Source: Isoetes taiwanensis (lineage: Eukaryota; Streptophyta; Lycopodiopsida; Isoetales; Isoetaceae). Taken from it: DNA of 64,000 bases. Numbering within the stretch: position 1 is the first letter of the stretch; each line of letters begins with the position of its first letter. Positions 3,736 to 36,464 of the stretch are shown piece by piece. Below the pieces are notes generated by a model that made no database searches, was not told where the DNA came from, and saw only the letters and a program-made list of their open reading frames with translations. The stretch is from assembly GCA_021234155.1 (NCBI GenBank), contig JAJEKV010000063.1, positions 3,409,536 through 3,473,535 on the forward strand, written 5' to 3'. The position numbers and the translations under genes were made by a program.

Positions 3736-4150
3736 ATTTTCCCTAACATTTTTTTTTCTTACAAGAAAAAAGGCATCTTCTAAAGCAATAAAGGGATTTC
3801 AAAAGTTTCGCACGTCCTTTTTGTGTAAGATAACAAGGTTCAAAAAAAAAATGGGAATCACATGTGACCCACTTTAATTAAATGCGACTTAATATAAGTG
3901 AAGCTGAAGGACTACAAGGCCTTGGGTTGAGAGACGGATCCTTCAAGACTGCGCCCTTCATCTCATAAGTTACCGAATTCATCAAAACCAAAACGCAATT
4001 TGAAAGCCTGGGATTTCCATGAATTTTGCCGATTGTAGATTAAATTCAACGATTCCTAGCCTCTTCAGCTGCAAAGAAATCCTTGTTGGCTGCAATATGG
4101 ATAGCCTCACAGTGCAAGAAAGTCTGCACTCGCGTTCGTGCAAAAGTGTG

Positions 4151-15156: not shown

Positions 15157-15377
15157 TTATACGATATACTGCAAGCATTGAAAAAACATTGCAAAAATAT
15201 GAACAAGATGTTGGAAATCGACATCCGAATTCAAGCAATTGCTAGGGCAATCGCAGTGCCTGCACCTCTCAAATAATCTATATTTATGCCAAGCTAGGAT
15301 GACATTACTTTCAAATCTAGCTACGTCCAAGAACGTTGTCGCTGGCCTATGTAGCTCTGCAAGAACGTTGGCCATTT
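15157..15377 (-). pseudogene. LRR receptor kinase, last segment, separated from the rest by a transposon
   Basis: Read on the minus strand from 15377, the sequence gives A-N-V-L-A-E-L-H-R-P-A-T-T-F-L-D-V-A-R-F and continues to a stop at about 15157. Joined to the kinase segment that ends at 23042, it continues the subdomain XI motif: RTRPSMREM is followed directly by ANVLAEL with no frame change. It is therefore the C-terminal tail of the same gene, moved 7.66 kb away by the insertion at 15378-23037. See the entry for 23042-24906 for the kinase itself. Confidence 0.85.
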
Positions 15378-15402
15378 GGGTGCAAAATCGGTACTGGGTA
15401 GC
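15378..15402 (+). repeat. Left terminal inverted repeat of the 7.66-kb transposon
   Basis: About 24 bases match the right end with three or four mismatches: GGGTG[C/T]AAAATCG, then TA, then TGGG. It is preceded by the target duplication ATTT at 15374-15377. Confidence 0.8.
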
Positions 15403-15849
15403 AGAAATCACCGTCCAGACGCCGCTTACAAGTGCTTAAAATCGGTGTGTTTTAAACACGACGTGCGTGATTGAAGTATTGACATGTAGGGTGCTTGGAT
15501 CAAATGACAAATGAGAGAATCATGAACATGTTTGGTGCGGAAAACATGAATGCACAGTAGCCCATATATTCACGGATGGCGGGCTAACCCATCTTAATTC
15601 AAGCAAAATGGAGGGACTAATTGTTTCCAAGAATTGCACGAACCGAAATTCAACAATTTGCCCTCACCAATTCAAAGAATACACGTAAATCGGGATAGAT
15701 GAAACCCAATTCCTCTCCCCGCTTCAATTTCTGAGCCATTGATGCGACAAGGAAGAGAGATCGAGGCGAGATTGTATGCAAAGAAGGTAGCAATGAAGAA
15801 GAATTCCCCTTCTAAAGATTCACCCTTCAAAGACGAATAAGAAATTGAG

Positions 15850-18000
15850 GCCGAGTGGACCAGCGGAATAAGAGAAATTTCAAAGAGAAATTTATGAAGT
15901 ATTCAACCAAATTAGTACAAATGTTGATGACAATGACAAAGGCCGCATCATTGACAGTCTTCTTTGGAGGGCAAAGAGATTTACCAATTGCTTCTATATA
16001 AAGAAATCTAAGCGGTTACTATGGCCGAAAGCAAATGGTGAAGAATTTGAAGGAAACAATGCAAGAACATAAGTTTGAGAGGAATTATGACATGCTTCGT
16101 GCAAGGAAGTCCACCACGATAATGGCAAAGAAGGTACAAATGGTGTCAAGCCATTGAATCAGCGAGAAGTGGCCGATTGCTCAAAGATCCCCAAAAAACA
16201 ATTTCAAATGCTTTTCAAAGAAGGGTGCAAGCTAACAAAGGGGAAGGACCTTGGTCAATGTTCGGGGAGGAGGAAGCGGATGGATAGCATGTTAGATCAC
16301 AATAGAGAAGTCGTTATCAAGTTCTGACGAAAAATACAAGAGTTTCTCCATACAAGAAAGACGGAGGAAGTATGTATCGAGAGGCAGGGAATAAAGATGG
16401 AACATCAATTCACCTTCTTGAAGTCACCAAGTAAGTATTCATCCTATATTGTAGGGTTCATTATATGTAGCATTTATTTGGCATTCACACGATTTCCTGC
16501 AGTTGCAATTCTACCTCGGGTTTAGAGAGGAGAATCCTCATATCAAAATTGCATTGCGGACTTTTGAGAGGTTGAAACCTAGTTTTGTAAGGAGGATCGC
16601 GTGAGAGGCATACATCTTTGTTGCATTTACCACTTGAAATTTGAATACATCATGCAAGGATTGAACTGAGAAAATCGGTGGAGTTCATGACAATTGCAAC
16701 CGCCATGTGAGATTTGTGGCCCTGGCCCGAGAATGTGCGAGCCAAGGAGCATACAATCAAGTGTACCAGATGATTTATGGAGACAAGTGGTCCGCAAACA
16801 AAGGTGATGATGAGGAGTGGTTTGATCATAACCGCTTGATGTTGGCGTGTAAAAAATGTGGGTTGGATAGAATTAGAAAATGTCCACAGGAAATGGATGG
16901 CACGGGTTCAAGACTAGTTACTTGGAAGACATTTGAAAAGCAACCCGTGGACCGGGACGGTTCAGGGATCCAAGAAAGGCTTTGAGGTACAAACTGCCTT
17001 GAGATTAGTACGAATGACGTAAGTCCCAAAGAATTTCAAGAGGAAGTGAAGAAGGTAATATTAGATTTTGTTCCACACAATTACATAGCACATTGGCGAG
17101 GCTATCCGGTTTTAAAACAAGCGGTGTGTCATCATTTCGGAAGATACAATTGTATCACGTTATTGACTTTCTTGAAAAATTACAAAGATCAAGATCCGGG
17201 GATGAGCCCCGGTCAATGCACCGGTATACGGACCAAGTTTCTATACTTGTTCACATAACATATAGGCATGACAAAAGTCTTGATATTCCTGTTCTGTCTG
17301 ATTTAAGAAGACCGTCCAAAGAAGAGAAAAAAAACGAAAGGTTGGAGCGGATCGGGAATAGACTCAACAACGGTAGGAAAGATCATAAAAGAGACTCACT
17401 TTACATTTCCGATGATAAAGTGCATGACTCATTATTTGTGGAACACCGCCTACAAAAGTATGTTGCATGGCTTAAGGAACAGGAAATAGAGTATGAGAAG
17501 CATTGGTTTTGGAGTGATGGCTGCTCATCACAATTCAAGTCGAAAACCTTTTTTTTCTTAGGCGGTACTTCACAATCAATGACAAGGAAATAGTGTGGAA
17601 CTACTTTGCCAACGCTCATGGTAAAGGTGAACATGATGGTGCGGTCTTTGTTATCAAAAAGGTCGCTAAGTAAGGAACAACTCAAACCCAATGGTGTGCA
17701 ACCGAGGCATGCTAAAGATATTGTAAAATTTACGTGTACATATTTCAATGATCTACCGGTCGATGAAACAGATGAGATCAAAAGATATTTTTGGGAAATT
17801 GAACTGTTGTTGTGGCAAACATGGAAGAATATGAAATTGAAACACTCAAAGGCACAAAGAAGATTCATCAGTATCGGACTGTCGTGAGGACTAGACCAAA
17901 AGCAGGGCTTGCTCATAGATGCACATCATGTTTCTCGCTTTCGTTTTGCATGGATCATAATTGGGACTCTGCATCAATACAGTAGATTAGGAAAGTGGGA
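15850..18000 (+). pseudogene. Broken transposase-like gene with SDGCSSQFK and HGKGEHDG motifs
   Basis: Summed over three frames, the sequence reads as one decayed protein. In order: MLACKKCGLDRIRKCP with a TWKTFEK segment (about 16840-16935), VKKVILDFVPHNYIAHWRGY (about 17050-17110), DQVSILVHITYRHD (about 17235), LYISDDKVHDSLFVEH (about 17400), HWFWSDGCSSQFKSK (about 17500), then after a frameshift YFTINDKEIVWNYF and HGKGEHDG (about 17565-17640), and a Cys-rich end HRCTSCFSLSFC (about 17910-17950). I recall this motif order from repetitive proteins in plant and invertebrate genomes, but I cannot name the family with certainty. Spaced Asp residues in RNase-H-like surroundings suggest a DDE/D transposase. 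At least three frameshifts are needed, so this copy is dead or contains introns I could not place. Confidence 0.6.
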
Positions 18001-18839
18001 GGTAACCCGACTTAAAACCGGGAGTTGAGAAGAAAAAGGAGACTCTTGAACAAGCCAATGAATGGATCGATAATTTGGTAGAGGTAGGTGACAATTTTGC
18101 GGTGAATCTTTGAGGTAGACAATTCGAGAGGGTATGGACTTCTACATCCTCAAGTGCCTGCAGAACCCAAATGCACACTTGAAGATTCATACGAAGATGG
18201 ATGGGGGCAAAAATTTGGAGTGCATGAGGTTATCTTAAGTGGATTGTATTATCAATTCTTGGGTAATTTCAAGTATATGTTGCTCACTAAACAACCCAAA
18301 GCCTCAGGTGCAACGTACATGTGGTAAGATATCCTAAAATTGATATGGAAAAAGTAGAAGGCCTGACGACATGTACAAATTTCCACAGAGACCCATGAAA
18401 AATTATGGCCAGTCTCCCAATAACAATGTAATTGTTTGACACTTAACGAAATTGATGTTATTCTTTTCAAGTGATTTGTTGTTCCAAAGACCTAAGCATG
18501 TAAGCACATATTTTTTTATATATATTAACAATAGTGAGGATGCACAAGGGGTGGTGTGCATGGACACGCATTTGAAATGAAGATTGAATTGTTGTTTATA
18601 AGAATGTAGATTTGTGACATTGGAATAAGGTTCAATTATTTATTTTGGTACCATCACTATCCCAACATTCTTGGCAAAAATATATTGTCAAGGCGTTTCC
18701 TCGATGTGACATGTGTCAATTCGGTAGTCATCTGAAAATATTGCGGCACGGTTCTGAATTAATTGTTATGTGAGGTTTATCGTGCAATTGGACGCCTAAG
18801 CCGCGGGACTTAAGCGGTAAAGCCCACAAGCTCACGCTC

Positions 18840-19300
18840 ATACAAGCTCTCCGCCAATTCATCCATCAGCCAATTCCCTCCTGCACTCAGCCCAATCCGC
18901 ATTCCTCCCAATCCTCCCAAGATGAAGCGAGCACATAGCGAGGAGCCGGGAGGTCACCTCGGGCGGCGCTTACTAAGCGTAGAAGAGGTGTTCCCTCCAC
19001 TCTTCCGCCTCTGCCGGGAAGTGCTTGCGCCTCCCACTCTGGCTTCTTCTCTCCGCCCACTCTACTCGCCTCCCGGTTTGAGGAGTCGATTCCGATTCCT
19101 CATCTTCCATTCCTATGAGGAATCGAGAAAATGAGGAATCGGAAAATAATTGCGGGAATATGTCACCGCAAGCGATCACGCGAGGGATGGATAGGCTAAG
19201 AAGAGGAAGAGGAAGAGGAAGAGGAAGAGGAAGAGGAAGGGAAGAGGAAGAGGAAAGGCGAGGAAAGCCGACTTGGAGGAGCCGTGGCTTTCCTTAAAGG
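18840..19300 (+). other. Exon-like GC-richer segment with GAGGAA repeat, paralogous to 39.7 kb
   Basis: A CT-rich leader precedes an ATG at 18922 (MKRAHSEEPGGHLGRR...). The segment then has CGATTCCTC and GAGGAATCGAGAAA motifs and an AAGAGG hexanucleotide run (about 19197-19262) that would encode alternating Arg-Gly and Glu. A diverged second copy of the same arrangement starts with an ATG at 39751 (MKRSAHLRREVSSKR...). Both have a splice-like GGTACAT after a TTGGAGGAGC or TTCGAGGAGC stretch. Shared layout in two places argues for part of a mobile element rather than a host gene. No function can be given. Confidence 0.5.
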
Positions 19301-20290
19301 TACATACAAATTTTCATTTGTTTTACGTTTTCATTTTTTTCGTTTGTTTAATCTTCGTTTGTTTAATTTTTTAGTTTGTTTCATTTGTTGCGGATGGAGA
19401 ATGAATGCGAGGAGCATGAAGATGAAGAAGACATCCCTTGAAGAAGACACCCCCTGAAGAAGACACCCCCTTGATGAAGAAGACAACCCCCTTTGAAGAA
19501 GACACCCCTTTTGAAGAATACACCGGCCTCGGGGCCAAAATTTTGTAAAATTTTTTGTAAAAATTTTGTACATTGGCCTAATGGCCTTTTTTTTATAAAA
19601 AATCTTGTTTACCATCAAACTTTGTTGTAACTTTGTTTCTTGTTTCATTGAGATCTCTTCTTCTTCATCTATGAAATGTTATTTTTGTCTATCTATCAAA
19701 TTTATGAAGTTCGAATTCCTGTGCAGTCCATTCAGATTCTGCTTGAATGTAACAGTGCTCTAGCTCTTTCATTAGTTTCAAACACTAAGCATTTTAATCA
19801 CTTTCAGCAGTGCCCGTTGAGTAAACAGCTTTGAACACACGAAAGCACTATGCAATAAATGACTACATTTAAGCAGGTTATATGGCTTAACAATAAGCAC
19901 TGCACCTTACCTGCATGACAGTAAGCACATGATGACATTAAGCAACTACATAAAAGTATCTGTCACTGCAAGACAATAAGCAGTATCTGCCATTAAGACT
20001 CAAACCATAGCACTTGCAGGCAATTTTTTTTTTAAGCACTTGATAAGTTTTAAGCATCCCTTTCAGTCAGCATTGAAGTATATATAAACAATATAGCAAA
20101 AACTTATAGACAAGTCTGCATTGAACTACATAAACAATATAGCAAAAACATTCTTAAATTAAGATAAAGATGGTACATGAAAAGTGTAGGATTCCTTGGC
20201 CTAAATAAATGACAAACAGACCAATAATCATGGAGAATGACAAAGCGTCATCACCATAAACCTTCTCAATTCCTCCTTCACAAACCTGGC
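19301..20290. other. Transposon interior rich in TAAGCA motifs
   Basis: Between about 19780 and 20090 the words TAAGCA and AAGCACT recur more than ten times in non-coding sequence, on the same strand. They resemble the subterminal AAAGCACTT words of this transposon family and may be degenerate binding sites. That link is inference. Confidence 0.4.
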
Positions 20291-20295
20291 AGAAT

Positions 20296-20976
20296 CTAAA
20301 TCAAGTTTTTCGAAAGTCTTTCCAAGCATAGCTTCATAATCTTTCTATCTGTCTTAGGCCAAGGCTTGTATCTATGTGTATTCTTCACCAGTAACTTCAT
20401 TTCTTCCTCAGTCTTGGCCTGCAGTATTTCTTCTATCTTTGGGGTGAGTACTGGTAGCACTTCATCATGGACATCCATCTTGAATGCAGGTACCCGCAGA
20501 AATTTCCAGGGACTGCTAAGGTAAGACTTGTACAATGAATCATCAAGAAGCAAAGTCTTACCCGAGAATCTTGGGTATGACTCATATATTTTTCCAAGTG
20601 GCTTCATCATGATCGGACGGCCCAGGGTTTGTTAGGTGGTGAAAAACCGGTTACGCACACATTTTCCCCGTCCCCATACAAATTCAAATCATCCCTCAAA
20701 TCGACATAGTACTTGCACACATCTTCCACATTGGAGAGTTGCATTGATGACCATATACCAACACAACACTTCAGAACAAAGTCTTCAAGAAGAACATACG
20801 CTACGGTCTCGAATATCACTTTCTTTACGCTTAGTGTATGTCATTGTCAATCCCGCTTCCAAGCGTATGTGTTCATTTGCACCAAATGTTTTACCAACAC
20901 ACCATTTAAATCCAAGACAATGAGTTTATCTTTGGGCGGCAAATCAATATTTAGTACGTTGGAACATCCCGAATAC
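20296..20976 (-). pseudogene. FCP1/SCP1-like phosphatase (HAD family), broken
   Basis: On the minus strand an exon starts after an intron-like TGTGTAG at 20977 and gives KLIVLDLNGVLV, which matches motif I of FCP1/SCP1-type CTD phosphatases, although the second Asp of DxDG is Asn. VGIWSSMQLSNVEDV follows (motif II region), then in another frame KPLGKIYESYPRFSGK and TLLLDDSLYKSYLSSPWK (the DDS motif III region). The C-terminal frame is open from 20610 to 20296. Stops near 20850 and 20607 and at least one frame change break it. Such enzymes dephosphorylate RNA polymerase II CTD or similar substrates; this copy probably cannot. It lies wholly inside the 7.66-kb transposon, so it may be a captured host gene or normal cargo of the element. 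Confidence 0.7.
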
Positions 20977-21323
20977 CTACACAACAGAATTACTACATGA
21001 ATAAATAGATGAAGATGAAAATGAAAAATGGGTTGAATGTGGAAACCTTTATCAGACAATGAGGATTCTCGACTCCAACAGAATGAACTGTAATCCTACA
21101 ATTAATGCAACAAAAGAAAATCAATAATATTCAATGTTTTAATCAACACTAAGTTGTGGCCTTCTTGCCCAACAATGCCCATACCCCTTTCCGGGTTAGT
21201 AATGGCGTAATCACTTGTTGAAGATCGGGCTCACCAAACTTGAGGGCCCGATTACGCATTTTCTTGAACACACTTCGATATGTGTGGTGTCATGATTGAG
21301 GCCCTTCCGCATCTTTTGCATAG

Positions 21324-22985
21324 CTACTTCTTGTTCTCTTTCTTGTAGCCCCGAACAACTACTTTGCTATCCTCCACCTTACCCCTCTTTGTTCTTACGC
21401 CCTTTCCTTTTACGCAAATATTGACCAAGTTGCCCTCATCCGATGGAATTACTCCCTCAACTTCCTTAGGTGCTTCGATTATTGGCCTGTCCGTTGTTTT
21501 TTCCACAACCCCAGTCTTTGTGTTTACGACTTCTTCTATAGCTTCTTGGGCGACTTCTTGGGTGGTGGTGGTGGTTCTGTTGTTGCAATCAAATCGATCA
21601 CAATTGATTTGCTCCTATAGGACTTTGCAGGTGTTGTGCATCTTCAAATGGCACCATTGTCCTTCTTTGAACCCTCAACGGTGAGACCTCAATTGCGGAT
21701 CCGGATTAACACATTCTTTTTGGTGTACTATTTGAAGCACACAGCAACATGGCCAAAACCTAGCTTCGTCAAATACACCCTCCGGCACCTTTCGGGGCAA
21801 CCATGAATACATTGTCCTCCTCTCAACAATGAACAACAAGCTATATGATACTCATGTTGGCAATTCGGTGCTAAACTTAACCATAAGCTTTAGTGAATTC
21901 CAGGACCACATCTTAAACATGTATAAAATGAATCTTCCACTAGCAACTTATCTCATTATAATAGTAGAGATGCTAAATGTTCTTGAGGAGTATCCATTTT
22001 CAGCTTCCACAAATTGTTTATGTAGAAATCACGAAGTCTCGTTCTTCTTCGAGAACTTTTAACTCCTCCTCAAGTTTGAGTTTCACGTTTGACCCGCTCA
22101 TTAACGGATGTAGGGGTTCATTGCTTTTTGTACCTTGTTCATTGCCAAGTTTCCATCCGACGGTCGCTCCAAATCTTTAATTTACGCCTCCAACTCACAT
22201 GTTGGATTAAGCGAACTCCTCCGTTTTGTAGCCAAATCATTTGTGGCCTGTCTTAAAACCTGTTTTTTCAGCCTCTTCCAACATCATTTTCTCGTAATTC
22301 AGAGGCCTTCTCATTGCCTTTCAGCTCACTTCCCTCTTTTGCTTCCATTCTTTGTGATAAGTAAAAGCGATATTCCAATCTCCTGACTTTGCATTCTCTG
22401 AAAGGTTTTTATGTTTTCATCACATGCACCGACCTCATTTGATCCAAATTGCCACCTTTGGCTTTGCCTTCATTTCCGAGTTTTCCTAACATGTGCTACA
22501 ACATGCGCCTCTGTTTTTACTTGTCTATTGTTGTGGTATCTTTGACATTGCACGCAACAAAATGCAGCCCGGTTTTTTGTGTTCCTCAGGTGCAAGTATT
22601 GATCTAGTGCAATTTTCAAACGCAAAAGCAAAGGGCCAGGTTGCTTTCTTACTTATTTGTTGTGACAATTCTTGTAGATTTTTCGGCAGAGTGTTTCCAA
22701 CTTCTCTTGAAGATGCTCCTTTGCACAGTGCCATTTTATCTTTCCCTTGTTCAACTTCTTTGTCCAAACAGAATCCCAATCTCGATCCGTGACATTATTT
22801 TCCAACCAAGCTTCTTCCTCGTGGGGCTTCACCCCCGAATTGCACAGACCTCTGATGGTGTGAAAATCATCCGCGCTCCATGCCTCCATCGTCAACAGTG
22901 AAACACTGATCTGAGTTTTTGCGCCCAGGGGGAAAGGAGGGAGAAGGGCGTGACGGGCTTCGACGTCCGCGAGTTTTAGCACTTA
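21324..22985 (-). pseudogene. Decayed unknown gene inside the transposon, reading toward the phosphatase remnant
   Basis: Starting close to the right terminal repeat, the minus strand is open from 22982 to 22653, with a likely start at MEAWSADDFHTIRGLC and acidic and tryptophan-rich text after it. Further down, fragments suggest a coiled coil (about 22090-22030: LKLEEELKVLEEERDF) and a lysine-rich basic stretch (21506-21324: GKGVRTKRGKVEDSK). The fragments are in different frames. They may be the 5' part of the same gene as the FCP1/SCP1-like domain at 20296-20976, or a separate transposon protein. I do not recognise a family. Confidence 0.35.
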
Positions 22986-23013
22986 AAGTGCTTAAACGCT
23001 TCGCCAAAAGTTG

Positions 23014-23037
23014 TACCCCACTAGCGATTTTACACCC
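23014..23037 (-). repeat. Right terminal inverted repeat of the 7.66-kb transposon
   Basis: Reverse complement of the left end with few mismatches; it ends TTTTACACCC. It is followed by ATTT at 23038-23041, which is also the end of the interrupted kinase codon series. Confidence 0.8.
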
Positions 23038-23041
23038 ATTT

Positions 23042-24906
23042 CCCGCATACTTGGTCTAGTACGTGGATTCTCATTTGTGCACAACAACGCTAGCCTCAGA
23101 ACAGTAAGTATTTCCTCTTCTTCCTTTCCTTGATAATCCCTTATCCTGGGGTCAAGGACCTCGTCAACAGACTCTGTTTGCTGGATAACAAGCCTAACAC
23201 ACTTCCCTAAATCCACATCTTCTGAAGAACTGGAATCAACAGTTTTTTCCGGTAATTAGTTCTAGAAGCACCATTCTGAAGGCATAAACATCAACTTTTT
23301 CGTTCACCTTCATAGTGTAATAATAGTCTGTCAGGGAAATTATGCATGTTAAATGAAAATTTAAAATTTCAGAGATATTTTGAGGTCTCTGGACTTACCT
23401 CGTGCTATGTATCCGTATGTGCCAACAATAATTATAATAGATACAGATAATCCATCTTTGTCAATCAATTTTGCTATTCCGAAGTTTGTGATGCAAGGCT
23501 CCATGTTAGAGTGTAACAACATATTGCTGGATTTGATGTCACGATGAATAATCTGGGGATGAATATCATGGTGCAGGTATGCCAATCTATGTGCAGTGCC
23601 TAATGCAATGTTGTATCTTGTTTTTCAATCAAGAGCAAGTGTCCTATGCAGAGCATCTCTGAGGCTTCCTACTTCCATGTACTCATATATGATTTAACCA
23701 ATTCCATTCTAGGCTGAGTACTCAATGATGTTTATTAGATTTCTATGTTGTAACTTGCCTACAGTTTCTAACTCCCTTTCAAATGTTGCTCCTACTGTCT
23801 TTTTTGGATAGCTTCAGTTTTGTTACTGCAAGTTATTGTCTAGATCTGCTAAGGACTTTTTATATTAATCCATATGCACCTTTTCCTACAACATTATTTG
23901 TGGCATGCAATACTTCCGTTGCAGACGGTTTCCTGGAACCGTTGATAAAGAATACTCTTGCTTTGCCTTTCTGGCACAATGAGACTATTGTTGTATAAAC
24001 AATTAAAAGACAAAGTGCAATTGCTCCAAGAATTATCCCAGCAAGAATGCCTTTTTTAGCCCCTTTTTTCTTTTTCTGATGTAGTCACAGTGCAGGATGT
24101 ATTTGAAGTGCACAACTTCTGGTTGCTAGCAAATGACAGAGGATAAGAAATCAGGAACCCTTTCCATGATTGGGGAACATCTTCTAATAAATTGTTATAT
24201 GAGACATCTACACATATCAGCTTTGCCATGTGATCTTCTAACTTGTTATGTCACAAGTCCATCTGTTCAAGTGAAATATGTCTAATTCAGCCGGTATATT
24301 CCCAGTCAGCTTATTGTAACTTAGATTAAGCATATTTAAATGCAAGTGCTCAATTTCTCGAGGTATGGAACCTTCCAGTTCGTTATCTCCCATTCTCACC
24401 TCCACAAGAGAGAGATTGCAACAAAAAAAAAAATAAAACTTGGGATTTCGTCTGCCAGTCTATTCCCTTCAAGGATTAGAGTTTCCAAAATTTTGAGACT
24501 ATTCATCTCTTGTGGGAGATTGCATGCAAGAAGGTTATTGCTCAAGTCCAGATAGACCATTTCTGTGCAGTTGGCAAACTCTCTGGTGGAATCTTAGATC
24601 CATTTACCAAGTTAAAAGAGATGTCCATATATTCCAGTTTTGATTGTGAGCAAAATCTAATTTTTGAAGTTCTTGAAGAGCAGATATTTGGGAGGAAATA
24701 CTTTCACTTGGAGATGGGCAGGAGAGATTAAGAGCACTAACCATGAGGCCATCGGTGTGGCAGGAAATACCGACCCACAAGCACGGACTAGAATCAGAGG
24801 CATTCCAAGAGTGTAGCACATCTGTGGGATTTGCAACAACAATTGAAAAAGCTCTCTTGATCAAAATGGAAACGTTTGCAGAAACAAGCCATCTAGTTTT
24901 GTACAA
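23042..24906 (-). pseudogene. LRR receptor-like kinase, decayed and interrupted
   Basis: Read down the minus strand: an LRRNT-type cap (VLHSWNASDSSPCLW, VGISC) near 24830-24750; a few leucine-rich repeats (EGSIPREIEHL, LNLSYNKLTGNIP) near 24380-24280; a membrane segment GILAGIILGAIALCLLIVYT near 24040-23985; then the kinase. That gives GKGAYG (glycine loop, about 23880), FERELETVGKLQHRNL (about 23760), LAYLHHDIHPQIIHRDIK (about 23560), TNFGIAKL where DFG is expected, GTYGYIA, and RTRPSMREM ending at 23042. Several in-frame stops (for example near 23700) and frameshifts kill it, and most repeats are missing. The DFG Asp is Asn and APE is lost. The tail lies at 15157-15377 beyond the transposon. 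The subfamily resembles clade XI receptor kinases (inference). Confidence 0.85.
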
Positions 24907-25120
24907 TATTGTCTCCTTAAATCAGAGGTTATCTTGATAATCTTCTGAATTGCATCAGCCCGTTATAGTTGAACCTAGTTCACATCATGGGGGATGTGTC
25001 CATTCACATTCTCGTTCATCAGAAAGAGTGGCTAAAATGTCAGACCCAACAGGCGCAGATAAATGCCTTCATATTTTGACTTCAAGTCTTGACATTGCCC
25101 TCATTCTCTATAGTTGTCTA

Positions 25121-25668
25121 TGTTGGAGTTCATATCACAATTTGTTTATTAATCTTTAAGTGCATATAGTAGAAGACCACAGACAATATCTGTACATACT
25201 TGAGAAGACAGAGAAATGATCTAAGGTTGAAGTCAGAAGGATAAGAGCAGGCATTTGTAGATATGCTCAGATTCATATTTGATCTAAGCAAATGAAAGAG
25301 TTCTTAGGTTTAGCAATTGACCTAAGAAAATGATATATTCCTATGGTTATTTGTTAATCATTGAAAAACAGTTGCGAACCATTGAATTAAAACAGGGGAA
25401 TATTCGAAGCCTCGACGAGATGCTTGCAGCCAAATTTGGTTTGAACTGGCTCGGTCCAATGCAAAACAAACATGAAGATTGTGTTGAATCTGAAAACCTG
25501 CTAGCGGTCTGGCATCACCGCCAGACTGCTAAGATTAAAAGAAGATGTAAGATAGGTTATAATTCAGTTGGTGCCACGGTGAGCAGATTGATTCGAAACT
25601 GTGGAAAGATCAAAGATAAAAGGGTTTTGTGAATTGAATCTATATTGCTACAGTATCTATTATAGTTC
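25121..25668 (+). repeat. 5' LTR, left part
   Basis: Matches 36475-37020 of the 3' LTR nearly base for base and stops at TATAGTTC, where the foreign insertion begins. It includes an open frame from 25330 (MIYSYGYLLIIEKQL...) that is also open in the 3' LTR. Confidence 0.93.
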
Positions 25669-26490
25669 TAAACTAGAAACGTGTGCCCGGCGATGCCGGG
25701 CATTAGTCATGGATGTGTGAAATGAGTCGAGGTGATAAAATTTGAAAGTGTTGTAAAATATGTAGATGTAATCATACTCCTAGGTTAATATATGAAGGGC
25801 ATTGTGTGTATGTATGTGGCCTGGCCTGCATACGATTGAACAAAAGGCATAGGAGGGTGGAAGGGAAGGACCTTAAGATTTATATTCTTATTTATCTCAA
25901 AATCAATTAACCGAATAATTTAAGGAGTAGATTTTGTATATCACATATACGTATCTACAACTTTAAAATTTTTGGGTACATAGAGAGCATATAGTCTTAG
26001 AAATATTGTTAGCTAGCACATCAAATTAGAGAGAAATCCCTTTGAGTAATGTATGTCGGAATAAAAGTGGTTAATACATAGTTTAACTGTATTAAAAAAA
26101 AGAGCGTAATTTCTATAGGTGCAATGGTGTTTGGAGCTGCAAAAGAGTTAAGATAGATACAGAATGGTTAGGGCAAATATTTTTTTCACAAAGGGTCATT
26201 TATGATATAGAAATACAATGCTTAGGGCAAATATTTTATGCACAAATTGCGTCTTCCATTGGCTCTATAGTTTAGCATGCTTCGTCCTTTAATCTGAAAT
26301 TGAAAACATTTATTTGATAATAGATAGATAGCATATGTAGGGTATGTGTTAACTTGGTTATCGATAAAAGGTTCTAGATTTAAACATTAAATATAAATTT
26401 ATTCAACAAATGTTCGCCTACTTCAAAGTTCTAAACATGTCAAAATTCTATGCTAAACACATCCCGAAAATTATGCATGAAATCAGATTT

Positions 26491-26598
26491 ACACAAAGTA
26501 ATTCTTAAGCACCTCTTTTCCCCAAGAGGCAAGTCAAAACAATTGACACAAAGTAATTCTTAAGCACCTCTTTCCCCAAGAGGCAAGTCAAAACAATT
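26491..26598. repeat. 55-bp tandem duplication
   Basis: The sequence from ACACAAAGTAATTC to AGTCAAAACAATT occurs twice in direct succession (26491-26544 and 26546-26598), with one T missing in the second copy. Each copy holds a CCTCTT/AAGAGG mini-hairpin. Confidence 0.8.
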
Positions 26599-27499
26599 CT
26601 TTGATCTCAGAACCCTTGTCCACATTATAGCACTCCAACAAAGATATTAAGAATGCTATTATGGGGTTTCCTTTGGGATTCATGTCTTGATCGCATCATG
26701 TTGAAACATTTGAAATTGGGAGATCAAGCTATGGAAATTTCTAAACTATGACAACTCTATGCTTTTAAATTGCTTAGCTCTATTTGAACAGAGCTAATCT
26801 CTAGAAAGCATATGCACTTGCAAAATGGACACGTCTAACTTTAATGTTTTTAGAAATTTTTCCTTGGTCATAGGTTTTCCAAAATCCAAAGAATTAATGT
26901 TGAGCAACTTCATCAATATAATGTTTCACCTTGAATTACTCGCAACATTTAGCTATTGTAATCCCCTTGGAGTGACAAACTTTTTCTTAATTCCTGGATC
27001 ATATAGGGGCTCTTTGCTAGCTGCATTGTTACATTCTTCAAGTGGCCAGACGACAAAGTATAGTTTTGTTGTGCTCTTTTCCTTATATTGAATCCCATAG
27101 ACCCGCTGGTGCCCGTGGACGGCATGTTTCAAACATGCATGTTGTCCATGGCATGCTTATATTACATTCTCAATCGCCACGCTAAATTGGAAAAATAAAT
27201 CTATATGCTAATCTTTCTCTGCAAAGGTAGCAAGGGCAGGATGCACCTGTCAAGTTGCAGAACTACCTCCCAAAAGACAAACCTGCATTATAGAATAGAC
27301 TTGAAGATATTAGAGATTAAATGCACAGCAATAAGAATGCAGTTGCAACATACCATCGAAATGTGCCACCATCTTGCAGATGATCTTATTTATTTACCAT
27401 TTCAAAAGACAAATCTCTATGCTAAACTCTCTTTGCATGGGCAGTAAGGAGGAAAGAAAGTACCTTGGAGTGCGAAAATTGTAGAACATTAACTTCATG

Positions 27500-28545
27500 A
27501 TGGATGCTCTATATGATTTGCGTATACTGATTTGAACCAGTCTGCAATAGTTCATCTGAAGAATGGACATGTACCTGGTGAAGAAGTATTTCAAGTATGT
27601 ATATCAAACAAAAGATGGCAAAATTTCCCCACTCATACATAAAACAAAGGAAAAAGGAAAATTGCACACACTACTTAAAGCATACCAGTTGTATGAAAGC
27701 ATGGCAGACACTATATGACTTCTTTGCGCACATGATGCAAATTGCCAGAAATAGCTGCTTGAACATTACCAGAATAATGTGCTTCCACATAATGAATGGT
27801 ATCCCAAAGTAGATGACAAAATCTGCAACCACAAGGATTAAAAAAATTTGATCATTGGGATGGTTGGGAAAGAAGAAACATCATTAAATTTTATGCTTTG
27901 GTATAAATTCTTCATTGATATGCAATATCTACAGTCATGGACAAAAGGACAACAAAAAATGATGGTATTCAAAACAACATAAAAAAAGACGCAGCAATAT
28001 ACATGTATAGTCTGCTCTATTAGAGAAAGTACAAAATGTGAAAGCCCTATCTCAAAGCCCTGCTTCTATTAAACATGCAACGATGAGCATCTCAAGCATG
28101 CAGCACAAAAGAAAAAGTGAAATCATCAAAATTGCTCAGAATAGATAATTGCCCTTTGTGCTCACGGGAATAACAATGCTAGCAAGGGTTTCTAGATCAA
28201 TTTAAAGATTTTGAAAAGCACAAAACATTTTGTAACATACATAAGCAAAAATAATTCATACCTTGCGATTCTGGAACAATACATAATAAGCAATGCCATG
28301 ACTCTCCACGTAAAAGTCTAGTTGTGCAATATGCTGAAAAAAATAGTATCTATGCTGTGTCTGTAAACATAAAAGAAAAAACAATAAATTCAGAAGTCAT
28401 TGTATTTACATGTTCTCATGTATTAGACGAAAAAACAAAACGATGAGAGGAGTGAAATAGTACCTCCATAGCTTGATCTGCATTGCTCTATCCTTATCAA
28501 TCCAGTTCTCTAGAGGACGCTCATAAATGGAACCTTATACAGTAA
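27500..28545 (-). pseudogene. Exon-like fragments of an unidentified gene in the Helitron-like insert
   Basis: Three minus-strand blocks have plausible splice borders and protein-like text: GSIYERPLENWIDKDRAMQI (about 28540-28475), HIAQLDFYVESHGIAYYVLF (about 28335-28265, after TTTTTTTCAG) and FVIYFGIPFIMWKHIIL (about 27825-27770, after GGTTGCAG, before GTAATG). Frames do not join cleanly. I cannot name the source gene; it need not be the RBOH gene. Confidence 0.35.
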
Positions 28546-29639
28546 AAAAAAGAATGACTAAGAGAGAGCAAACTTAAAGAGAGAAGTATTCATAGAAAAC
28601 CTTAGAAGAAGACGAAATGAGGAGAAACATGAAATCCCTATTTAAGCAAAAAAACTCCAGTTGAATCTGTTGCATCTTGTCCTATACACCACCATTGGTA
28701 TTGCTTACGACAAAAGAAAAACTTCCGCAATAGAATGTTTGCTTTTTATCAGGTTGTTGCAGGATACCAATTCTTCAGACACAATCCCTAGAAAGAGACT
28801 AAGCAAGTTCATTCAACGAATCTTCATAAATAAAAGAAGGATCATGAAAACAACATCTTACGAAAACCCTACTTTTGACTAAGGATCTTGAAGCAACTAC
28901 ATGTCCACCTGTTATCTGTATATGGATATTATTAGAGGTAATATTTTCACTTAATGGAAGCTATTAACATTTTCACTGAAGTGTTATAGAATAAGAATTA
29001 AAACAAAAGAAGAACTTAGCAAGATTGTGCCACTTCAATCACACCTCATAAAAGGCAAAATAGCGGTAAACCAGCAATTTCTCTGCCTAGCTCAGTATAT
29101 TTTGCAGCCAGGAACTGGTAGATTTATTCATTTTTGATACCTACCAGATATATTGGATACGCTAGCAACACAAATAAAAGTGTGAACCACCCATATGTTG
29201 TGGACCAATCTAAATTCTTCTATATGGTCTCTGTTAGCTGCATTTCATTATGTTATTTTCTCCACATACAGATGAACATCAGTGTATAATATTTAAAAAT
29301 CCTAAGAAATTCAATAGAACAGTGTATAAAGCTTACGGGATACCATGAATCAAATGGGGTTGGCTTTCAACATGCAAGAATCAAATGCTTCAGCTTGAAA
29401 AGCTCAAAGCCCAGACCGCACCTACGACAGCATTACAAAAAGGACTGCTGACGCTGCAATAACAGATGGTGGAAAGGCCAGAAAAGAGATGTCTGCACAT
29501 CCTCACAATAAAATATTAGGTAAGCATTCGGAAGGAAATGGCTCTGCCTTTCTTGCCCACAAATCATCACCTTTCAACCTGCATTTCCTTCATAAATCGT
29601 CAAAACCAAGCGTGTGCATGTAATAAGAAAAAGGTGTTA

Positions 29640-29901
29640 CGGCACTGATTCTCCACTCCAGAGTACTCGGGACCAATAGCTCCATGACTAATCAGTTGGC
29701 TGTAGTTTTTGTTGGAAAATCTTTGTGACACTCCACCAGCTACTTCCCCTTTCATCAAACTTTCAAGCTGCCATAGCTGCAAGTTCAGGATTTTCTTTGG
29801 TTAGACATGAGTATAGTTGAAAGGCATCCATTTGTGAAAGGAACGCCTTACCTCAATATATCCTAGATTCTCAGGATCTAGCTCTTCCATAAATAATCGT
29901 T
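29640..29901 (-). pseudogene. Two exons of an RBOH NADPH oxidase (captured fragment)
   Basis: On the minus strand an exon from 29901 to 29852 reads RLFMEELDPENLGYIE and ends at a GTAAGG donor. After a 75-bp intron ending TTGCAG, the next exon starts at 29776 and reads LWQLESLMKGEVAGGVSQRF, then NYSQLISHG. Respiratory burst oxidase homologues have MEELDPE.LGYIE.WQLE..L at the second EF-hand region, so the match and the phase-0 junction are convincing. The membrane and flavin domains are missing and no open frame continues. This is a gene piece carried by the insertion, not a working oxidase. Confidence 0.75.
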
Positions 29902-30272
29902 CTGTATAAAGATTGAAATGCTTCGGCATCCTACGTTACATGCGCTCCTCTGAGGCGGAATGCCAAAACGTAGATAGGCAAGCATAGACAGGCTGTAGAC
30001 GAAAAATGAAAATTCAAAATTGGTGTTGCTGCATCCCGCAAGAGGGAGAATGCACGATCTTGCAGAGGCCCGCAGAGGACCCAGCTCAAGAACCAGTTGC
30101 GCAGGCACAGAGAGCATGGAGTGCAAGAAAAGATTTGCATAAAATTGGCATTCAATGCCGACAACCTGCGTCCCGCAAGGGGACATGCAACCGGAGAGGG
30201 AACGCCGCATGCGGCGTAAGATGCGGCGTTCCCTGGCACAATTCCCAACACGCTCCCAAAATAAAAAAGAAG

Positions 30273-30505
30273 ATGAACAAAGGTGCATTATTCTTTGAGC
30301 CAACGGTTTTGTATGATTTGCTAAGTTGAATTTATTAATGTGCCTATACTAAGAGATTGGGATTGATCTAAGAAATAGATGTAATATGAGGTGTTCTTTG
30401 GACATTAAGAATTAATGTCTTTATGTGGTCATAAATTGTTGTGAAACAATGGTTGCATTGTTCTAAGTGAATATTTGTTTTATTCTTGACTCTGAATTTC
30501 TTACA
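30273..30505 (+). repeat. 5' LTR, right part
   Basis: Matches 37024-37256 of the 3' LTR with about three differences in 233 bp, ending in CTTACA. Together with 25121-25668 it makes a complete LTR, which shows that 25669-30272 is an insertion. Confidence 0.93.
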
Positions 30506-30506
30506 T

Positions 30507-30522
30507 TGATATCAGAGCAGGG
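30507..30522 (+). promoter_or_regulatory. Primer-binding site for initiator Met tRNA
   Basis: TGATATCAGAGCAGGG starts two bases after the 5' LTR. It differs by one base from TGGTATCAGAGC, the usual copia site complementary to the 3' end of initiator methionine tRNA. Confidence 0.85.
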
Positions 30523-33500
30523 TTAAGATAGAATGGCCAGTAGGTTTGGTGCAGGATTGCTAAATGCAATAGATGTGTTCAAGGGAGATTTAGGGTTCCA
30601 GGTGTGGAAGGAGAAAGTCAAGCATGTGTACAAGTAGAGGCGCTGTGGGAATTGGTTGAGCCTATTGAGGGGAACAACAATATAAGAGGCACTGCAAGCA
30701 GAGGAATGGCTATTGCAGAAGAAGGAAGTGGTTCTTCTAATGAAGAAACTGAAGGAGTTCAGACACGAGATGTAAGTGTGACATCTAGAGGGTTGACATT
30801 AACAGATAATGCAAAAACAAGAGAAGCACAAGGGATTATTATGAGCAAGGTGAGCTCGAGTATAGTCTTGAAATTAAGGGGTATGAATCCTAGTCAGATG
30901 TGGAACTACATGCTTCTTACCTATGAGGAAAAAACATCCTCACAAATAGATGTGCTGGAAAATAAATTAAGGAGGCTGAAGTTTCATGACAAGGATAATG
31001 TCAAGGATTTTTTTTCAAACATTTGATAATATTATAACTGATTTGGAGGGAGCAGGAGTCTATTACACACAGCAACAACAGGTTCTGGCAATTTCAAGGG
31101 CAGTAACTAGTCTTGGGAATATAGCTATGTTTATAAGAACTTTGGCAAAAATAAGAATGGAAGCTGAAAGAATGTTGAAAACAGAGATAGAACAGAATAG
31201 AGTGATTGAAGATGATGAAGCAACTCAAGTCTTGTTTATAAAAGGAAAGGGCAAGGATGAAAATAAGAAAAGAGGGAAAATAGGTCCATGCTACAACTGC
31301 AACCAGTATGGCCAGTTGAAGATAGATTGTCCTAACATGACAAAAGAAATAAATTGCTATAATTGTGGAGGAAGGGGACACTTTGCATCAAACTGCTCAT
31401 CTCCAAAAATGTTCTCAAAGGGAAAAGAAAAGGGAGCAAGAGGAAATTTAGCAGCAAGAGGAAGAGGAAGGGGTAGATTCAGAAATGCAGAAGCAGATGT
31501 GGCAGAAGAAGTTCATCTTGAAGAAGATACAGAAGAAGAAGAAGAAGATGAGGTAAGGAAAAATTCAGCATTTATTGCTAGTCATGAGAAACTTGCTGAC
31601 AGTGATTTTCTGATATTAGATAGTGGAGCAGAAAAGTCCATTGCATGCAGCCCAAAAATCTTGAAGGAAAAGAAAGGAAGTCAAGGTGGACATATACAAG
31701 TTGGAAATGGTGACTTGCAAAAAATAGAAGATGTTGGAATTCTGGATTTGTTCGATTTGAATGGTAGAATAGTGAATTTGCAGAATGTGTTGTGTGTACC
31801 TAGTCTGGTTAGAAACTTGATTTCACAACTAGTTGATATGGGATTAAAGGTTGTATTTGACAGATCTCATTGTAAGATTTTTGAAGGAAATGAATTAAAG
31901 TTTTTGGGAAGAAGAGTTGGAAATCTTTTTGGCATAAGTTCTCAATCCATTGGAAGTATTAATTTGACTTTGGCACCAAACATAGCATTATGGCATTAAA
32001 GGCTTGGGCATACAAATGTGAAAAATGTTGAATTTATGATAAAGCAAGGTTTAATAGAGTTACATGATAGAAAAACAGAAAATCACACTTGTAGAGGTTG
32101 TATGCTTGGAAAACATTCAAGGCTACCTTTCTCAAAGTCAAAGGGGAAAGCAAAATATATTTTAGAACTAATACATACTGATCTCTGTGGACCCCTAAAT
32201 GTAAGAGGAATAACTGGGAAAAGATATTTTATAACATTTGTAGACGATTTCAGTAGAAAAACAAAATCGTATTGTCTAAATACAAAGGATCAGGCATTTG
32301 AAGCTTTCAAAGCATTCTCAGCAGAAGTAGAATGTGAAACAGGAAAAAGGATAAAATGTGTCAGGTCAGATCGAGGAGGAGAGTATATGTCTAGCAAACT
32401 TTTTAGATATTGCATGGAAAAAGGCATCAAAAGGCAATATACATGCAGTCATACACCCCAACAAAATGGGGTAGCAGAAAGAAAAAACAAGACAATTCTA
32501 AATGCTGCCAGATCTATGTTAAAGCATGCTGGCTTACCTAATTTTCTTTGGGAAGAAGCAGTTAAGAGTGCTGTATTAATACATAATGTATTGCCATCAA
32601 AATGCTTAGAAGGAAAAAATCCAGAGTTTGCTTGGTCAGGAAAAACTCCAAGCTATGAAAAATTTAGAGCATATGGCTGCCTTGGATATACACATATTCC
32701 TCAAGAATTAAGGCAAAAGTTGGATGACAGATCGATTATAAGCTATTTAGTAGGTTATGACATTCACTCAAAGGGTTACAGAATGTATGATCCACTCAGA
32801 AAGAGAGTAATGGTAAGCAGGGATGTGACATTTGTTGAAAATACCCTGTATCGACCATTGCTGGAAGATGTGGTTACAAGAAAAGATGACAGACCTACTG
32901 AAACAAAGAAACTTGTAGATACAAGCACAAAAATAGAAGAAAATGAATCTCATGATGCTTCAGGAGACATGGATTCTGATGATGACAGTATTGATGATAA
33001 TAGTGATGAAAAAGAATCAAGGGAAAGACTTGAATCAGAAGAAAGCAGTAAACCTAATGAATTGTTAAGAAAAAGGAAAAATGAAGGGGAGAGACTTCAA
33101 GAAGAGGTCAACATTGATCTACAAAAATTTGGCAGAAAAGAAAATGGAAGAAGTAACAGACTACAATTGCAAAGAGAAAATGTAGAAGAAGTTAACATGG
33201 TCTTAGAATCAGGAACACCCGAAAGCTTTGAGGAGGCAATTAATTCTTTGGAGTGTGAAAATTGGAAAGAAGCAATGGCAGAAGAAATGAAATCATTTGA
33301 CAGAACATCTACCTATGAGTTGGTAGATTTACCAAAGGGAAAAATTCCTATATGAAATAAATGGGTCTACAAAATCAAAATAAATGCAGATGGGAGTCCA
33401 AAGTATAAAGCAAGATTAGTTGCTCAAGGATATTCACAAAGGAAGGGGATTGACTTTGATGAAACATATTCACCTGTGGTAAAATTAGCAAGCATTAGAA

Positions 33501-34465
33501 TGATAATTGCTATCTCAAACGCTTTAGACCTTGATTTACATCACATGGATGTTTGTACTGCTTTTCTTAATGCAGATCTAGAAGAAGAAATTTACATGAA
33601 ACAAGCTCAAGGATTTGAAGTAGGCAAAGAAAAAGTATAGAGATTGAAAAAGGCAGTCTATGGTTTGAAGCAGTCTCCAAGACAATGGTATTTTTGCATT
33701 GATAATTTTCTGAAAGGATAAAGTTTTACAAAGTTTGATAATGATGGCAATGTTTATATGCTAAAAAGGGGAAATGATTTTTGCATAATGACAGTATATG
33801 TAGATGACTGTATTTTGGCTTCTAACAACTCAGAATTTCTGGATAATTGCAAAGAAATGCTTAATAGGAGATACAAAATGACAAACATGGGAGAACTGTC
33901 ACAATTCTTGGGTATTCAAGTCAAAAGGGACATAATTAACAGGAGGATCTCATTGAATCAAAGTAAGTACATTGATTCTGTTTTAGAAAAATTCAGTATG
34001 AAAGAATGCAATGCAGTAAGAGCTCCAATACTTGCTGGAAGCAAATTGTCAAAGAAATTATGTCCAGAAAATGAGAAAGAAAAGGAGAAAATGAGTAAAG
34101 TGCCATATAGGCAGTTAGTTGGAAGTTTGTTGGTTATTGCTAACAACACAAGGCCAGATATTGCATTTATAGTAAATGTGTTGAGTAGGTACAACAATAA
34201 CCCAGGGTTTGAACATTGGTTGGCAGCCAAAAAGGTGTTAAGATTCTTAAAGGGAACAAAAGATACAGGGATTGTTTACTGCTCAAGTGATTTAAATTTG
34301 AAATGTTATAGTGATGCAGATTGGTGTGGTGATTTGGATGAACGTAAGTCCACTTCAGGTTATATTTTAATGTTGGGAGGTGCACCAATAAGTTGGAGGA
34401 GTAAAAAGCAATCTTCAATAGCACTTTCAACAGCAGAGTCAGAATATGCTGCAACTACTCTAGCT

Positions 34466-36153
34466 GGGTGTAAATATGGTAATGCTACCCAAAAAAACGC
34501 GAAAGCACTTAGCACTTAAAGCACTTGGCTGCGCTCGGCCAAAAGTCATGCCGTAAATGCTTCCTGCCTGTACTTTGTTCTCGGCTAAGTTAGATTAATA
34601 ATTATCACCTCTGATACTCTCCAATCTTTGCATTTTGATGCCATGTAATGTCAAATTTTTTTTTTGCTGAGATAGATTACATGGCAGTTTCGATGTTGGA
34701 TTGGTTTCAATAGAGTATGGAGAAAGTTAGAGAGAAAATAACAAACAAAGAAGACGGTTATCCATTCAAAAAGAAGTAATGGAATTGCAAGGATAAAACT
34801 AAGAAGTAATGGAATTGCATGAATAGTATTAAGATTGTTTTAATCTGAGACGGAATTGCAAGAATGTATTAAGATTGCTTTGATAAAAAGGATCTCAAAA
34901 CTCGATTAACAAAGCTTGATCAATAATGTAAATGACGAAATGTGAATGCACGCAAGACTACTCACAACAATATAGAACAACAATGATCATATAAAAGACA
35001 ATGTTAACCCACTATTAGTGAAAATTGACCAACTTTGAGAGGTCATTTCTCCCGCATCCAAGCTCAGATTTAATTAATTTAAACTGCAAGAGAAAGGCCA
35101 TAGTGTCTACTTTTAGATGCAGGTAAAATCATCAAAAATTATTCATTAAAACTCAAGATATCAAATTCTGAGTTTTGGTATATTTCTGTGACAAAAATCA
35201 GAACACAGTAACAAAAAATCAGAACTTTGAGAGACTCTTCTCACTCCTCATAGCTCAGATTTGAGTGATTTAAATTGCAAGAGAAAGTGCTAAATGTCTA
35301 GTTTTAAATGCATGTGAGATCACTCAAAACCGATCAGCACCACTCAAGATATTAAAGTCTGAATTTTGTATATTCTTGTGACATCAATTTCTGCACCACT
35401 TGTAACAGAAAATCAGCCAAGTTTGAGAGGCTATTTCTCACTCCTCAGAGATCGGATTTGTGTGATTTTGATTGCAAAAGAAAGAGACCGAAGTATACTT
35501 CTAGATCAAAATGAAATCGCTCCAAATAGATTGGTAGAACTCAAGATATCAATGTCTAAGTGCAGCGTCAATTTTCCCATTTGGGAAAACAAAATAACGT
35601 AGATCTAGGATACAACATTAGAGATGCATAATACATTGAAAGAATGGAACAAAAATACTCTTAAGAAAAACAAAGAGTAATCAGATTGTCTCTTCTCACT
35701 TGATTTGAATCCTAAAAAAGCTTCTTCCCAGGTTAAATGGATGCTTTCAAGAGAGCTGCCCACAATTCAATCTCCAATGCAAATGAGATTGAATTATCAA
35801 TCTAAATCAAATTGCAATAAAACATTGTTAATTCACCTATGATTTCTATGCCGATTTGAACTCTAATTTGTGTTCTTATCTTTGCAAAAGAGAAACTCCA
35901 TCAATCTTGTCCCCGCCAATGGAGTTCCGCCCTTGAAGATCCTCGTCGGCCCGATCCTTACCATTTCCGGAGATCTCCCACCGGGATCATCCATCTCATC
36001 GATCCTTACCTCCACGGAATGATCCATCCTATTTCTGGAGTAACAACCCCCCGAGGTCGTTGAATGAAAAAGCACTCGAGGGTAAAGCACCTAAAGCACT
36101 TAAAGCACTTGTCCGGATAGTGCTTTTTGGGTAGCATTACCATATTTACACCC
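34466..36153. mobile_element. 1.69-kb non-autonomous DNA transposon, 30-bp perfect terminal inverted repeats, AGCT duplication
   Basis: The ends 34466-34495 and 36124-36153 are exact reverse complements (GGGTGTAAATATGG at the outer edge). AGCT is duplicated at 34462-34465 and 36154-36157. Removing the insert restores the copia RNase H frame (ATTLA followed by AKEIIW). Next to both termini are AAAGCACTT words: AGCACTTAAAGCACTTGG near 34508-34525 and CCTAAAGCACTTAAAGCAC near 36090-36108. No transposase is encoded; one minus-strand open stretch (36090-35863) begins just inside the right end. End sequence and duplication length tie it to the 7.66-kb transposon at 15378-23037. Confidence 0.92.
35027..35575. 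repeat. Three diverged tandem copies of about 194 bp inside the 1.69-kb element
   Basis: Copies at about 35027-35220, 35221-35414 and 35415-35575 each begin near AACTTTGAGAGG, then a TTTCTCACTCCTC-like word, then CTCAGATTT, GCAAGAGAAAG and ACTCAAGATAT. Divergence is considerable and the third copy is shortened. Confidence 0.75.
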
Positions 36154-36464
36154 AGCTGCCAAAGAGATCATATGGTCTAGAAGATTCTTAAATGAATTGG
36201 GAATAAAGCAGGAAGAGAGCACAATATTATTTTGTGATAACCAGAGTTGCAGCTATGGCAAAGAATCCTGTTCTACACGAGAGAACAAAGCATATTGAAA
36301 TGGAGATGCATTTCATAAGAGACATGGTAAATAAAGGATTCATTCAGTTGAATTATATCAAATCAGAAGATCAATTAGCTGACATTATGACTAAAGCATT
36401 AGGTTGGAGAAGGTTCTTGAAATTGTCAACAGAACTAAATTGCAGAGACATTAAATTGTGACAT

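Follow-up and report, generated by a model that had tools for sequence, protein, structure and literature searches.

The 64,000-nucleotide stretch analysed here (the window; contig JAJEKV010000063.1 of Isoetes taiwanensis, positions 3,409,536 to 3,473,535 of the forward strand) carries two inserted elements, a large one at 15378-23037 (element 1) and a small one at 34466-36153 (element 2). The two belong to one wider clan of DNA transposons, sharing GGGTGYAAA ends, 4-bp target site duplications (TSDs) and GCACTT-type subterminal words, and each is bordered by a perfect TSD, ATTT and AGCT, respectively. A preliminary description made from the sequence had proposed these coordinates and common traits, as well as the insertion of both elements into coding frames, and all of this was borne out. 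When an element is removed in silico together with one TSD copy, the interrupted frame is open again: ...NENPRTRPSMREMANVLAELHRPATT... on the minus strand at element 1, where a receptor-kinase-like C-terminus was hit, and ...SEYAATTLAAKEIIWSRRFLNELG... at element 2, where a Copia RNase H-like region was hit (both frames named by eye).

Copies elsewhere in the genome searched (G000; 1,658,258,908 bases in 1110 contigs) were sorted by eye from the listed ends into groups A (element 2), B, C, D (element 1) and E; group F was named from copy L091 and group G from copy L090. In the large copies of types A, B and D, a transposase-like gene is accompanied by a conserved second gene with RING-like and NIF/FCP1-like parts. 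The features of the two elements are the following.

15374..15377, TSD copy ATTT, left flank of element 1
15378..23037, plus strand, element 1, D-type large element, 7660 bp
15378..15409, plus strand, D-type left end GGGTGCAAAATCGGTACTGGGTAGCAGAAATC, 229 exact genome copies and 0 in the reversed control
15699..16451, plus strand, decayed transposase-like gene, N-terminal part (tblastn of the L015 open reading frame, ORF)
16431..16502, plus strand, candidate intron GTAAGT...CAG of the transposase-like gene (by eye)
16497..18428, plus strand, decayed transposase-like gene, core and C-terminal part (tblastn of the L014/L015 ORFs)
20311..22982, minus strand, decayed second gene (tblastn, pieces from L013, L017, L019, L020 and L021), with the following five parts, all placed by tblastn
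22575-22982, minus strand, N-terminal region
21743-22495, minus strand, coiled-coil-like region
within 21164-21940, minus strand, RING-like region
20635-20969, minus strand, NIF/FCP1-like domain
20311-20730, minus strand, C-terminal part
23006..23037, minus strand, D-type right end GGGTGTAAAATCGCTAGTGGGGTACAACTTTT, 282 exact genome copies and 0 in the reversed control
23038..23041, TSD copy ATTT, right flank of element 1
34462..34465, TSD copy AGCT, left flank of element 2
34466..36153, plus strand, element 2, A-type non-coding element, 1688 bp, member of the 1.6-1.7 kb class
34466..34526, plus strand, 61 bp common to element 2 and the second-gene end of A39/L131 (98% identity), holding a 25-bp end and AGCACTT words
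35982..36153, plus strand, 172 bp common to element 2 and the transposase end of A39/L131 (90-91% identity), holding the other 25-bp end
36154..36157, TSD copy AGCT, right flank of element 2

Element 1 belongs to subfamily D, as a coding copy that has decayed. Its identity is 90.1% with L016 and 90.6% with L017, in alignments that sum to about 7.86 kb, and its transposase-like gene is split over several frames. It had been described as gene-bearing, which is right in that it is coding, though decayed; the conservation of the second gene throughout the clan had been missed. Element 2, a non-coding derivative of the A type, has 30-bp perfect inverted ends and is small and devoid of a transposase, as had been noted, the longest stop-free frame being 79 amino acids. 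A diverged direct repeat occupies part of its interior (35031-35557; 74% identity over 338 bp), with an additional 70% partial match and offsets of approximately 190 and 390 bp.

The nearest coding relative of element 2 among the copies read is A39, an A-type element of 8,981 bp with the TSD TTTG, both genes and the exact 25-bp end of element 2. The two window elements had been put forward as an autonomous and non-autonomous pair of one family. This pairing has to be abandoned: elements 1 and 2 give no DNA match at E 1e-3, element 1 and A39 have in common only the outer end and short words, and it is A39 that combines the end and subterminal DNA of element 2 with both genes. Another closed A-type copy, L131 (G000 C889:562761-568811; 6.0 kb, TSD ATTT), has kept the second gene and is an intermediate deletion derivative; it was dropped as the coding partner of element 2 because the transposase core is missing from it.

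Ends and target sites in the genome

The exact A-type end of element 2 occurs 438 times in the genome and not once in the reversed-pattern control; the genome search with the ends that had been suggested gives 229, 282 and 438 exact copies against none in the controls. A loose pattern, GGGTGYAAA followed at 15-45 bases by AAAGCACTT, matched 406 times in the 1.66-Gb genome and once in the reversed-pattern control; these are matches rather than ends, and as the word may occur twice, some ends are counted twice. For at least 51 of the 80 D-type left ends used, a right end among those listed lies no more than 25 kb away, and in 30 of these pairs the distance is 7.4-7.9 kb. The 100 of the 438 A-type ends that were listed form 29 adjacent pairs in three size classes, namely 271-282 bp (n=5), 1,607-1,718 bp (n=16) and 6.0-11.6 kb (n=8).

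An exact 4-bp TSD was found in 53 of 58 end pairs from all sources together, and the duplication length given in the preliminary description thus holds over the genome copies. The pairs comprise whole D-type elements (6/6), D-type flank pairs (6/7), the A-type elements that closed (2/2), C-type elements (4/5, with L052 among the four fitting 6 bp too), the extended copies that closed (3/3), the window elements (2/2) and the largest set (30/33), in which 5-bp duplications were absent (0/33). Unmatched flanks used as a control gave 15 chance 4-bp matches in 1056. The 58 pairs are not all independent, as some copies may be segmental duplicates, and the tally leaves out 13 of 20 copies in which no second end was found, six of these having been extended and three then closed. 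The five misses are L034/L035, L051, L099/L100, L101/L102 and L140/L141. The left flank of L101 resembles that of L037, and L101/L102, still counted as a miss, may lie in a duplicated segment as a copy altered by mutation. An end-like word without a TSD at 4045 of A41 was left out of the tally.

The 53 TSDs are AT-rich, with A or T in 158 of 212 letters; the first letter is A in 29 and the last letter T in 28. A palindromic target preference was considered and dropped, since A and T occur jointly in 17 of 53, near the product of both frequencies, and the copies are in mixed orientations.

The words AGCACTT/AAGTGCT are concentrated in the 300 terminal bases, with 5-6 in each of four A-type elements, 2-3 in each of seven D-type and each of five C-type elements and one in each of two B-type elements; the background is 0.06-0.14 per 150 bases in element interiors and 0-0.09 in 300 shuffled bases. 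The left end of the divergent G-type copy L090 was assigned by eye, without a TSD test, as GGGTGAAAG, and GGGTGYAAA may therefore not be fully diagnostic of the clan. Beside this copy there is a short stretch (L090:260-340) that starts with GGGTGGAAA and ends with TTTCACCC, which could be a mini-element or a nested end. The E-type copies L054 and L055 (G000 C941:5642698 and C941:5708312) have an identical left flank and are 98% alike over about 1.9 kb, which looks like a segmental duplication; no closing second end was found for either.

The transposase-like gene and the second gene

In D-type elements the transposase-like gene reads inward from one end and the second gene from the other, so that the two are convergent. 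The same arrangement was found in all six extended A- and B-type stretches of about 9 kb, of which A39, B45 and B48 were closed by a second end and TSD and A40, A41 and B44 were not. Both genes also match, convergently, in the divergent copy L090.

The product of the first gene contains, in this order, the aspartate of SVIDFAEN, the aspartate of SDGCSSQFK and the motif HGKGEHDG, an order that would fit an RNase H-like acidic triad of the DDE/D type. In an alignment of nine rows DGC[SA]QFKS is present in all nine, HGKGEHDG in seven and DF[AV]EN after SVI in five, the rows without a motif being short, broken or altered at that place, and L090 has VDGCSSQFKS and HGKGEHDG in one frame. The core is 50-66% identical among A, B and D. 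The ratio of nonsynonymous to synonymous substitution rates (dN/dS) of the transposase is 0.27-0.31 within A and 0.13-0.15 between A and B. In the B-type copy L059 there is a weak helix-turn-helix match (E 0.0016), under the curated cut-off. Searched against the PDB, a single protein had no match and a profile gave chance-level matches only. The weak NCBIfam and PHROGs matches were set aside as chance, including MphB (E 7.6e-4; 18.8 bits against a cut-off of 615), and Ppx_C (E 0.0054) was dropped as lying below its cut-off. Relatives were sought in prokaryotes, viral contigs and plasmids, which says little on plants or animals: pattern-led scans gave 35 stretches in prokaryote genomes and 600 in viral contigs, none of them confirmed, another scan gave seven stretches, unrelated by eye, in the former and none in the latter, and tblastn found none in plasmids.

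The second gene was found in A, B, D, F and G copies, with about 23-49% identity between subfamilies. Its N-terminal region is followed by a probable coiled coil, recognised by eye, and this by a RING-like finger and a NIF domain. The RING-like spacing C-x2-C...C-x-H-x2-H-x2-C...C-x(2-3)-C is kept in all eight aligned copies from five subfamilies, these copies having been preselected by a C..CGL.F pattern; the best RING match in Pfam (E 2.6e-4, 21.6 bits) lies below the cut-off of 27.3. The RING part meets a stop in the copies read, and in some of them AG-ended acceptor-like sites were seen by eye upstream of the NIF part.

The NIF domain is recognised in F (66.9 bits, E 2.2e-18), A (68.1 bits, E 9.3e-19) and G (72.4 bits, E 4.3e-20), and in the D-type copy L021 with 28.6 bits (E 1.3e-6), the Pfam cut-off being 21.8. 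Its best solved relative is UBLCP1 (3shq, E 1.3e-6), followed by CTDNEP1 (8ujl, E 0.0032). Phosphatases of the NIF/FCP1 type have the catalytic motif D-x-D-x-(T/V). The NIF copies read in the elements have D-x-N-G instead. Among 20 NIF places fetched the pattern was readable in 15 (11 of 14 weaker-scoring and 4 of 6 stronger-scoring ones), and it was D-x-N-G in all 11 of the former and D-x-D-E in all four of the latter; D-x-N-G is likewise present in the aligned B- and D-type copies. Three of the 11 D-x-N-G places lie in copies of which other parts were read as well, L072 (L131), L075 (L091) and L070 (L090); others were placed by similarity only, L064 and L066 with A and L067, L071 and L073 with G, and the type of the remaining three (L065, L068 and L069) is tied to no element. 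A multi-copy NIF-like gene with the motif LDMNGVLL is seen at L089 (G000 C179:238500-246800) and also at L065, L068 and L069; L089 has no recognised transposase or RING relative and is adjoined by a reverse-transcriptase-like fragment (by eye).

Where the synonymous rate (dS) is measurable, the second gene is under purifying selection. For the NIF part dN/dS is 0.18-0.29 within A (dS 0.96-1.45), 0.20-0.25 between A and F (dS 1.8-2.6) and 0.20 in diverged G pairs (dS about 1), and for the RING part it is 0.25-0.26 within A (dS 1.5-1.7) and 0.30-0.31 between A and F.

Affiliation and proposed mechanism

The nearest known superfamily, by TSD length, size and presence in moss, is Sola, compared here by description only. 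Sola elements are described as having a DDD transposase, 4-bp TSDs, variable ends and a size of mostly 2-9 kb, and they occur in Physcomitrella (PMC10741241, PMC9033089); they are seemingly uncommon in flowering plants (PMC10741241), and for Sola2 elements from two amoebae, 4-bp TSDs rich in A and T are described (PMC3627910). The present clan resembles Sola in the 4-bp TSD, large elements, variable termini and occurrence in a seed-free plant, Sola being reported from a moss, and may resemble it in a putative acidic-triad-like transposase, in which E or D could be the third residue. It differs in the RING-like and NIF/FCP1-like second gene, which was not found described for Sola. The word Sola is absent from the main texts of two Isoetes genome papers. 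Sola2-Fanzor chimeric elements also combine a transposon having 4-bp TSDs with an additional protein (PMC3627910); that protein is unrelated, and the extra gene described here has diverged across the subfamilies along with the transposase. Among phosphatases the likeness is to UBLCP1 and other NIF/FCP1-like proteins, with a NIF domain above the Pfam cut-off, and the difference is the D-x-D that reads D-x-N-G in the element copies read.

CACTA/Spm elements encode two gene products and have subterminal repeats. The clan shares with them the large size, two gene products and short subterminal repeats near the ends; with its GGGTG termini and 4-bp TSD it is nevertheless not CACTA, which has CACTA/CACTG termini and a 3-bp TSD (PMC10741241). 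Three other superfamilies were ruled out as well, piggyBac with its TTAA target (TTAA in none of the 53 exact TSDs), PIF/Harbinger with its 2- or 3-bp TSD (4 bp here, and no Pfam transposase match) and Ginger with its TG...CA termini (GGG...CCC here, and no Pfam integrase match).

As a whole, the observed ends, TSDs, copy numbers, two-gene arrangement, constraint and common termini are best explained, with a probability of about 0.78, by a clan of two-gene terminal-inverted-repeat DNA transposons, most likely cut and paste, in which element 2 would be mobilised in trans by A-type elements. A DDE/D-type transposase would recognise the GGGTG ends together with the short subterminal AGCACTT words and would make 4-bp staggered cuts at AT-rich target sites, leaving 4-bp duplications. 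The coding elements would be those of approximately 7-9 kb, in several diverged subfamilies and with two convergent genes, and the elements of subfamily A may act on element 2 through the common ends. A conserved accessory role is the most likely one for the second protein; constraint kept up across deep divergence points to a needed accessory function. The protein might serve in end binding, in the control of transposition or in interference with host ubiquitin or C-terminal domain (CTD)-phosphatase-linked control. Because D-x-D reads D-x-N, it is probably a catalytically altered phosphatase fold. That a RING and D-to-N UBLCP1/FCP1-like accessory protein has co-evolved with the transposase and couples transposition to the host ubiquitin or RNA polymerase II phosphorylation machinery is a tentative suggestion, which we consider rather unlikely.

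Several points weigh against the explanation by a two-gene transposon clan. The transposase-like gene has no identifying match in Pfam, NCBIfam, PHROGs or PDB, its putative RNase H-like fold is read from motif order, and the third acidic residue is ambiguous, being either the E or the D of GEHDG. The B-type elements are poor in AGCACTT words. The two genes are not always found together: in L091 the second gene is accompanied by no more than the C-terminal part of the transposase, and L131 is without the transposase core. Frames are broken in most copies read, none of which has complete open frames for both genes, and the union of RING and NIF in one protein is putative. Close pairs have higher dN/dS, for the transposase 0.54 (B) and 0.66 (D), for the NIF part 0.33 (A), 0.77 (B) and 0.59 (G) and for the RING part 0.43 (A); cross-subfamily pairs are mostly saturated and yield no value, and the remaining NIF pairs, computable at high dS, give 0.30-0.66.

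That the clan is a plant lineage of Sola (Sola1, Sola2 or Sola3) whose extra gene is unremarkable is, in our judgement, more probable than not, and this would be compatible with the two-gene clan proposed above. It is favoured by the exact 4-bp TSD in 53 of 58 pairs. The motif order is similar to that of animal sequences associated with Sola. The traits described for Sola include a 4-bp TSD, a DDD transposase, a size of mostly 2-9 kb and occurrence in a moss (PMC10741241, PMC9033089), and the AT-rich TSDs of the clan (158/212) are like those of amoeba Sola2 (PMC3627910). The second gene might also be a captured host passenger outside the transposon machinery: host-type NIF genes are present in the genome, the multi-copy D-x-N NIF gene (L065, L068 and L069) lies outside recognised elements where examined (L089), and one ancient capture followed by co-evolution is compatible with the data. 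More weight was given to this possibility because three of the 11 D-x-N-G genes are tied to no element. We nevertheless regard it as improbable, as the gene occurs in A, B, D, F and G copies at about 23-49% identity between subfamilies, is convergent with the transposase in A, B, D and L090 and has low dN/dS in diverged A, A-F and G pairs.

Mobilisation of element 2 by element 1, which the common outer GGGTGYAAA, TSD length and subterminal words might suggest, is very improbable given the lack of a DNA match at E 1e-3, the splitting of the element 1 genes into several frames and the existence of A39 with the exact 25-bp end, the subterminal DNA and both genes. The odds of chance or an assembly artefact are negligible, with reversed controls of 0 against 229, 282 and 438 and of 1 against 406, and with 15 of 1056 unmatched flanks against 30 of 33 true pairs.

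The combination of a RING-like finger and an altered-active-site phosphatase fold has no transposon precedent that we could find, nor was a transposon with either a NIF/FCP1 or a RING accessory gene met, in a literature search limited to narrow word combinations. The clan, abundant in a seed-free plant genome with hundreds of exact ends, 4-bp TSDs and non-coding derivatives some 0.27 and 1.7 kb long, may serve as a test case for the interplay of DNA transposons with ubiquitin or RNA polymerase II control, and if its transposase falls outside Sola1-3, the lineage may merit a superfamily of its own.

Two further observations concern the window outside the elements. The middle part of the second gene is weakly matched by tblastn (E 3.9e-5) on the minus strand at 25671-25802, and a lone end-like word, GGGTGAAAATGGG, is found at 51517 with an AAAT-like flank adjoining.

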